Assembly (NCBI GenBank): GCA_035504215.1 | Contig: DATJSI010000033.1 | Coordinates: 1 to 61,018, forward strand | Length of the DNA stretch: 61,018 nucleotides | Reading direction: 5' to 3' | Origin: Mycobacteriales bacterium | GTDB taxonomy: Bacteria; Actinomycetota; Actinomycetes; JAFAQI01 | Part shown: piece after piece, positions 39,364 to 40,744 of the stretch | Layout: each line of letters starts with the position of its first letter | Numbering within the stretch: position 1 is the stretch's first letter | Translations under genes and position numbers: made by a program | The notes under the pieces: generated by a model | What the model saw: only the letters and a program-made list of their open reading frames with translations | Databases searched by the model: none | Told to the model about the DNA's origin: nothing

Positions 39364-39969
39364 CTAAGCGCCGCCGGAGTAGCCGCTCGACCGATCCGGC
39401 GCCGAGTACGTCTCGCCGGGACCAGTGTCGGACGACGACCGGTCGAGAAGCCCTGACTCGCGAGCGAATGCAGGAAGCAGCTCTCGCAGGGCGTAGTTGC
39501 CGTAGAGCGCTACTGGCAACCCGATCCGGTCTTCCACCCGCGTCCCTTGTTCCGGGGGGACGAGCGGCCAGGGACAGGCCTGCATCGCCAGCGTGATCCG
39601 CTTGCGTCCCCGGTGCGTCCTTGCGGGGAGCCACGATCTCGTGGGCACGAGTCTTCGCAGCGCACCGTCGTGGACGAGTTGGTGTCGAACCGTGGTCAGG
39701 GCTGTGTCCACCGGCCCTCGAGCAGCCAGGGCGCCGGGTGCGACGTGGCCGTGGACGGCCTGCCAGATCACCCGCTCCAACCCGTCGGGTGGCGCGGTTG
39801 CCGCATCCTCGGGGCGTCGTACGGTGCCCTGTCCGCCCGCGTCGAGGTGTCCCGAGGCATGCAAGACCGCGAGGGCCGCGGCTACACATCGGAAGCGACC
39901 GTCGCGCAGAAAGGCGAGGAACAGATAGTCCGGGACCGTCGGTGGCTCACCTGACGACCGCGAACTCAT
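39364..39969 (-). CDS. TIGR04222-like hypothetical protein without transmembrane segment
   Basis: A 201-residue protein whose N-terminal part (PDYLFLAFLRDGRFRCVAAALAVLHASGHLD, then LERVIWQAVHG and ALTTVRHQLVHDGALRRL) resembles the TIGR04222 cytoplasmic winged-helix-like region. The membrane segments that normally follow are absent; the C-terminus is a Ser/Gly-rich SSGYSGGA tail. It could be a shortened family member or a different family. The first amino acids and start codon are standard. Not assignable to a function. Confidence 0.5.
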   Translation of the reverse strand: MSSRSSGEPPTVPDYLFLAFLRDGRFRCVAAALAVLHASGHLDAGGQGTVRRPEDAATAPPDGLERVIWQAVHGHVAPGALAARGPVDTALTTVRHQLVHDGALRRLVPTRSWLPARTHRGRKRITLAMQACPWPLVPPEQGTRVEDRIGLPVALYGNYALRELLPAFARESGLLDRSSSDTGPGETYSAPDRSSGYSGGA

Positions 39970-40051: not shown

Positions 40052-40077
40052 GGAATGTCCCGGCGGTGCGCTACGTT
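40052..40077 (+). promoter_or_regulatory. Candidate promoter of the small RNA (GGAAT-N18-GTT / TACGTT)
   Basis: GGAAT at 40052-40056 and GTT at 40075-40077 are separated by exactly 18 bases, the consensus of SigR/SigH-type thiol-stress promoters. TACGTT at 40072-40077 also fits the TANNNT -10 of the main sigma factor. Transcription would start near 40083, just ahead of the first hairpin. The match could be chance; the position upstream of a structured, terminated segment makes it more credible. Confidence 0.5.
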
Positions 40078-40083
40078 GAACCG

Positions 40084-40220
40084 CAGAACGTCGAGAGACG
40101 TTCGCCGGCTCGATCCATGGCCCCCGGTCCCAACCTTTGTCGCTTTGAGCGAATCTGTGCCGAGAGGCAGACCTGGCGGGTCGGCGCGCGAGGCCCCGGA
40201 CGTGAAGCGTCCGGGGTTTT
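40084..40220 (+). ncRNA. Candidate structured small RNA with intrinsic terminator
   Basis: About 137 nucleotides with no coding frame of merit. Hairpin 1: GAACGTC (40086-40092)-GAGA-GACGTTC (40097-40103), a 7-base stem capped by a GNRA tetraloop. Hairpin 2: TCGCT-TTG-AGCGA (40140-40152). Hairpin 3: TGCC-GAGA-GGCA (40158-40169), again GNRA-capped. A C-rich unpaired stretch (40121-40132) lies between 1 and 2. It ends in a strong terminator at 40194-40220. It is oriented plus while both flanking genes are minus, so it is not simply a leader or trailer of either. It matches no RNA family I know. Confidence 0.6.
40194..40220 (+). terminator. Intrinsic terminator of the candidate small RNA
   Basis: CCCCGGACG (40194-40202), loop TGAAG, CGTCCGGGG (40208-40216), then TTTT (40217-40220). 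A 9-base GC-rich stem plus T-tract is a clear rho-independent signature on the plus strand, where no protein gene lies upstream. It is the only textbook T-tailed terminator noticed in this window. Confidence 0.8.
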
Positions 40221-40282
40221 CGTGTGTCCGGACCGCACTCGGACCGAACCCGGGCCGAACCCGGGCCGGCGCGGCGTAGCGG

Positions 40283-40744
40283 TCAGGAGCCGGCCACGGT
40301 CTTGCGGAAGTACACCCGGCGGAAACCGGCGTCCTCGCCCCGATGGGTCTCGACGTACCCGTGTCGCGGGTAGTAGTCGAGGTTCTCGGTCATGAGCTCG
40401 TTCGTGTACAGCCGGATCTCCGCGCGTCCCAGCCGGGCCGCCTCGGCGTCGGCGAAGCGCAGCAGGCAGGCACCCACTCCGCCATGCTGCGCGGCCGGCC
40501 GGACGGCGACGTTGTCGAGAAGGAGATGGTCGCCCGCGTCCTGCAGGACGACGACACCGACCAGCTCGCCGTCCCGGGTCGCGAGCCATACCTCACCGGC
40601 TTCGGCCAGTGCCTCGTAGTCGGCGGTCATCGGCGCCGGCTCGCGGCCGATCCGCGCGACATACGGTTCGTATGCCGTCCGGACGAGATCGCTCACCCGA
40701 CCCGCATCCGCAGCAGTCGCCGCCACGATGTCGATGCCCTCCAC
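40283..40744 (-). CDS. GNAT-family N-acetyltransferase
   Basis: A 153-residue acetyltransferase. The acetyl-CoA motif A is LLDNVAVRPAAQHGGVGACLLRFAD (core R-P-x2-Q-x-x-G-V-G), with the usual strand-4 VGVVVLQDAGD before it and the C-terminal YYPRHGYVETHR motif B. Length is standard. It acetylates an unknown amine; no operon partner clarifies it. The ATG at 40744 is the only good start. Confidence 0.87.
   Translation of the reverse strand: MEGIDIVAATAADAGRVSDLVRTAYEPYVARIGREPAPMTADYEALAEAGEVWLATRDGELVGVVVLQDAGDHLLLDNVAVRPAAQHGGVGACLLRFADAEAARLGRAEIRLYTNELMTENLDYYPRHGYVETHRGEDAGFRRVYFRKTVAGS

Follow-up and report, generated by a model that had tools for sequence, protein, structure and literature searches.

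On a Mycobacteriales contig, two minus-strand genes, at 39364-39969 and at 40283-40744, flank a gap that raises the question of whether it holds a small RNA gene of its own and, if so, under which sigma factor this RNA would be made and how it would act. The window, i.e., the whole stretch of 61,018 nucleotides that was analysed, had previously been interpreted from its letters alone, and this sequence-only reading proposed that the gap holds a standalone plus-strand small RNA, preceded by a SigR-like promoter, folded into GNRA hairpins and ended by an intrinsic terminator.

Locus and fold of the RNA

The individual elements of the proposal, a GGAAT-N18-GTT promoter, a 7-bp stem with a GAGA loop, a short hairpin, a second GAGA-capped hairpin, a C-rich patch and a terminator, were all found where it had placed them. 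The unit indeed stands alone on the plus strand, its downstream neighbour, a GNAT acetyltransferase gene (40283-40744), being convergent to it, and all computable checks spoke for an independent small RNA. By its sequence signals, 40083-40220 of the plus strand, to which all RNA features given below belong, is an independent small RNA with its own promoter and its own terminator. The predicted transcript of approximately 138 nt has its 5' end placed by promoter spacing and its 3' end by the terminator.

The core of the RNA (40104-40185) is bounded by a closing stem, P1, which the sequence-only reading had overlooked and which is the best-supported element of the RNA. P1 is a long-range stem of 9-10 bp joining GCCGGCUCG (40104-40112) to CGGGUCGGC (40177-40185), and it is continued by CCA-UGG and GG-CC pairs of an inner stem, in which the 5' strand CCA(U)GG (40115-40120) meets the 3' strand CCUGG (40172-40176), as supported by covariation. 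Enclosed by these stems are a near-invariant C-rich single strand, CCCCCGGUCCCAA (40121-40133), which the alignment marks as a candidate interaction site, hairpin P2 (40140-40152), with a UCGC/GCGA stem that shows U-A/C-G/G-C exchanges, and hairpin P3 (40158-40169), with a UGCC/GGCA stem and a GNRA tetraloop that reads GAGA in the window. The P2 loop is YNNGA in 179/179 homologues, and the P3 loop is GNRA in 177/179 (GCGA 118, GAGA 40, GUGA 19). The MFE fold alone yields the same architecture and leaves the C-rich strand unpaired except for a weak 3-bp helix; for the window element its z-score was -3.26, with 0/200 shuffles equally stable.

Pairing is conserved in relatives, and its covariation exceeds that of shuffles. 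Among 61 aligned homologues the named structure consists of 91.8% standard pairs, and 20 of its 26 pairs show two-sided (compensatory) change, amounting to 212 compensatory cells as compared to 64.7±9.2 in shuffles and to a covariation score of 0.405 vs 0.157, which lies above all 500 shuffles. Every P1 pair covaries, and the signal was lost when the partner strand was shifted by one column. Since P1 contains 64 G.U/U.G cells and 0 A.C cells, the plus strand is indicated as the functional RNA strand; an RNA on the opposite strand was ruled out by these counts together with the direction of the promoter. RNAalifold at first paired the C-run with P3 as the inner helix. This alternative was discarded, since changes in the P3 loop stay precisely within GNRA and covariation strongly supports the curated structure.

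Upstream of the core, a 5' hairpin with a 7-bp stem and a GNRA (GAGA) loop (40086-40103) is backed by alignment and covariation in the window's own family, where three pairs show two-sided changes and the loop reads GAGA, GCAA, GAAA, GCGA or GUAA; none was seen outside this family. Tertiary contacts through two identical GNRA loops, as had been suggested, are less well supported than the RNA itself: the inner GNRA loop is class-wide, whereas the 5' hairpin was seen in one family only and its loop letters are free within GNRA. At the 3' end, the intrinsic terminator CCCCGGACG-loop-CGUCCGGGG (40194-40220) forms a 9-bp GC stem followed by TTTT. Terminators were present at 9/11 same-family loci, 71/103 loci from a pattern scan and 18/65 other loci, where shuffling gave 0.3, 2.0 and 1.3, respectively. 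A simple terminator scan did not flag 40194-40220, because the tail has four T only, and the support comes instead from covariation, three terminator pairs showing two-sided changes within the window's own family.

Promoter and predicted SigR control

Among the thiol-redox switches of Actinobacteria, SigR/RsrA (SigH/RshA) serves as the model, and it matters in antibiotic producers as well as in pathogens. In front of the RNA lies a putative SigR-type promoter, GGAAT-N18-GTT (40052-40077), the SigR consensus being GGAAT/GTTG (PMC5005934). An element of the form GGAA[TC]-N16..20-GTT was found directly upstream of the core at 8/11 same-family, 79/103 pattern-scan and 39/65 other loci, compared to shuffle means of 0.06, 0.8 and 0.3, and hence precedes 126/179 homologues overall, almost always with a spacing of 18 or 19. 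Searches of the opposite strand and of two control stretches gave counts of 0-1.

Within the window's own genome, GGAAT-N18/19-GTT is present 30 times, as compared to 11 times for the reversed pattern, and one of these sites is exactly 40052-40077. Others precede sigR, trxB, clpC, dnaK, rbpA, rpmE (L31), a pirin gene and a MoaD-like gene, as assigned by eye from the sequence, and several of these match gene classes of the Streptomyces SigR regulon (PMC5472188, PMC4921905). The genome encodes a SigR orthologue, scoring 346 bits and thus over the family cut-off, as well as RsrA. Because the same promoter element fronts sigR, trxB, clpC, dnaK, rbpA and rpmE in this genome, the RNA is a predicted member of the SigR regulon. 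Our literature search found no paper describing a SigR-regulon sRNA, tmRNA aside.

SigR control would not be universal, since GGAAT is gone from some homologues (e.g., L239 and L242) that show a plain, strong sigma-A -10 (TATAAT or TACAAT), which suggests that these loci have switched from SigR to sigma-A control. In the window itself, a housekeeping-like -10, TACGTT (40072-40077), overlaps the SigR-type promoter, and a TANNNT overlapping the GTT was seen at 11/11 same-family, 102/103 pattern-scan and 44/65 other loci. Given how many loci carry this overlap, dual control by SigR and the primary sigma factor appears likely.

Distribution and proposed mode of action

A DNA search of 60 relatives identified the element in 10/11 other genomes of the same family, with 78-93% identity, and the core of approximately 84 nt in ten further genomes of the order and class. 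Using a covariance model, relatives were found across the class Actinomycetes, in 220/394 sampled genomes and, after refinement of the model, in 237/394 (~60%), mostly as one copy each; nearly all Streptomyces carry the RNA, and about 40% of the class sample was without a match. The matches in a phylum sample of 198 genomes came from the same class except for two marginal ones (E ~0.006-0.009), and in this sample the model convincingly placed the RNA nowhere outside Actinomycetes. When named genomes were independently scanned with a pattern, most matches fell in Streptomyces and Kitasatospora, with others in Frankia and one Frankiaceae MAG. A covariance search for known RNA families gave no match to Rfam 15, with 6C RNA and tmRNA included, either for the window element or for its homologues, and no plasmid copies were found. 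Some genomes (G266, G033, and G039) carry the RNA two or three times, another has a tandem pair 182 nt apart (L184, G211:C1:1926884-1927158), and some Streptomyces (G066/G127/G136) have a weaker second match. At homologue L188 (1664-1736), a tRNA gene lies approximately 70 nt downstream.

The genomic neighbours of the RNA depend on the family. In Streptomyces (~110 loci), a HelD-type gene lies immediately before its start and the malic enzyme gene comes after it on the same strand, while other families have differing neighbours, with downstream genes varied in function and strand. This diversity between families favours a trans-acting RNA rather than a cis leader. Genes for an ECF sigma factor and a zinc-finger-like anti-sigma factor are located just upstream of helD in Streptomyces (L061 onward), so that the RNA sits in a transcription-stress neighbourhood there.

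Alternative explanations of the locus had to be weighed against these observations. A cis-regulatory, riboswitch-like leader or attenuator, whose terminator would control a downstream gene, is consistent with a structured core followed by a terminator, with the same-strand malic enzyme gene in Streptomyces and with a DUF47/PiT-type pair that follows the RNA in some families. However, the downstream gene is convergent in the window, the functions and strands of downstream genes vary between families, and no alternative pairing that would make an antiterminator was noticed. With neighbours that are too variable to provide a conserved, coherent downstream gene on the same strand, we consider cis-regulation very improbable. 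The chance that the locus is instead a short protein-coding gene with its ATG at 40117-40119 seems negligible to us: an open frame (40066-40395) does span the core in the window, but Streptomyces homologues have no ATG, the distance from the C-run to P3 (37-41) shows one-base length changes, and conservation tracks base pairs and not codons. The coding reading was rejected on the one-base indels in the core and the missing ATG. Finally, the primary sigma factor might account for most of the transcription of the RNA, which would then be a housekeeping sRNA with the SigR element as a minor or lineage-specific addition. This is unlikely in our judgement; a TANNNT -10 does overlap the GTT in many loci, and some have a sigma-A-type promoter only, but GGAA[TC]-N18/19-GTT keeps its fixed spacing in all groups while the register of TANNNT shifts relative to it, and GGAAT-N18-GTTGTGCA-like promoters without TANNNT are found at L184, L191, L199, and L238.

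How the RNA would act is a separate matter, and here we favour action in trans through the C-rich strand. The C-rich patch had earlier been considered suited to pairing with ribosome-binding sites. Its near-invariance agrees with such a role, whereas a limited scan of 13 genomes for the 13-nt complement with at most one mismatch revealed no conserved mRNA target, the 20 sites inspected being almost all inside genes and none being conserved at start codons. Protein binding also fits, as the C-rich strand has one variable base (U/G/A/C) and is matched in conservation by the hairpin loops. The RNA could act chiefly as a small RNP, in which the C-rich strand and the two capped hairpins form the surface that binds a protein or the ribosome, and not by pairing with mRNA, a possibility that we put forward tentatively and rate below even chances. 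A core of about 60 nt that is nearly invariant, loops included, is more than usual for simple antisense RNAs, and an unannotated gene for a protein of approximately 200 aa directly adjoins the RNA in 10/12 genomes that have this protein family and could be judged. SigR control would be in keeping with an RNP as well, since the SigR regulon includes the translation-associated factors tmRNA, RelA, HflX, and PrfA (PMC4921905). On the other hand, neither the window's own family nor the searched Streptomyces genomes have the adjoining protein, and the C-rich strand showed no consistent pairing with 16S/23S rRNA beyond that of shuffled queries.

The protein family itself (consensus ...IAELWSxSPARSLPGALWRLYLLR...) occurs in 15/60 searched genomes and gave no Pfam or NCBIfam match. 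In the 10/12 informative genomes where its gene adjoins the RNA, the gene is usually located 40-140 nt upstream on the same strand (G014, G020, G030, G033, G034, G037, G038, G041, G055, and G058; loci L212, L216, L218, L220-L223, and L244).

Taken together, we think it likely that the locus encodes a trans-acting, independently transcribed sRNA of approximately 138 nt and that, in Actinomycetes, this sRNA is part of the SigR (thiol-oxidative stress) regulon. A SigR-type promoter lies directly in front of the RNA, a compact core of closing stem, C-rich strand and YNNGA and GNRA hairpins appears to have been kept by selection across the class, and the RNA is predicted to end at its own terminator without a conserved gene downstream; these steps are supported by sequence. 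Oxidation of RsrA would then free SigR, and the RNA would accumulate, allowing the exposed C-rich strand to contact G-rich partners, most likely the ribosome-binding regions of mRNAs, perhaps together with a protein that binds the structured core. The RNA would in this way be a non-coding arm of the SigR response, probably repressive or translation-tuning, much as MicA and RybB are for sigma-E of E. coli. We lean, by a small degree, towards the wider proposal that one RNA family, not in Rfam and with an active strand that is C-rich and conserved, forms an ancient non-coding arm of the SigR regulon throughout Actinomycetes.

Comparison with known small RNAs

A small RNA of S. coelicolor, scr2952, was reportedly described by Vockenhuber et al. 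in 2011. Because the Streptomyces homologue of our RNA lies directly after helD, which by synteny corresponds to SCO2952, and before the malic enzyme gene, which we take to be SCO2951, and this is the place that the name scr2952 implies, the homologue is probably scr2952, a functionally uncharacterised sRNA, its identity being inferred from synteny and name. SCO2952 is HelD (PMC8655204), and scr2952 is listed as an expression-confirmed sRNA conserved in more than half of the tested Streptomyces (PMC8388888). The text consulted gives scr2952 neither a function nor a structure, mentions no link to SigR and places it in no genus other than Streptomyces (PMC8388888). The description of the element as undescribed holds for the window's lineage and for Rfam, but the Streptomyces homologue is very probably this known RNA. 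If our interpretation is true, it would supply both a function and a family for a Streptomyces transcript so far listed without them.

With the 6C RNA, the present RNA shares a class-wide actinobacterial distribution and C-rich unpaired segments, making 6C an analogue in its way of working. However, 6C consists of two hairpins with at least six C each (PMC8388888), whereas the present RNA has a closing stem, one C-rich strand and GNRA/YNNGA hairpins and is not matched by the 6C model of Rfam. Ms1 and 6S-like RNAs are likewise widespread actinobacterial small RNAs tied to stress or growth phase, but Ms1 is longer, binds core RNA polymerase and is unlike the present RNA in sequence and fold, and RNAs shorter than 150 nt were excluded as Ms1/6S (PMC9130861).

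As the non-coding arm of a stress sigma-factor regulon, the RNA would have a functional parallel in MicA, RybB and VrrA, which differ in that they are of unrelated sequence, depend on another sigma factor and belong to another phylum. sRNAs of this type are part of the sigma-E regulon of Gammaproteobacteria and are Hfq-dependent; to our knowledge, no Hfq is known from Actinobacteria. If true, a class-wide RNA under SigR control would show by what means a sigma factor that only activates could also tune or repress genes. In conclusion, stress-sigma-controlled sRNAs are a known class of mechanism in other phyla, and one genus-level representative of the present family has probably been seen before as scr2952. 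The RNA family itself is outside Rfam 15 and has a strong predicted regulatory assignment.
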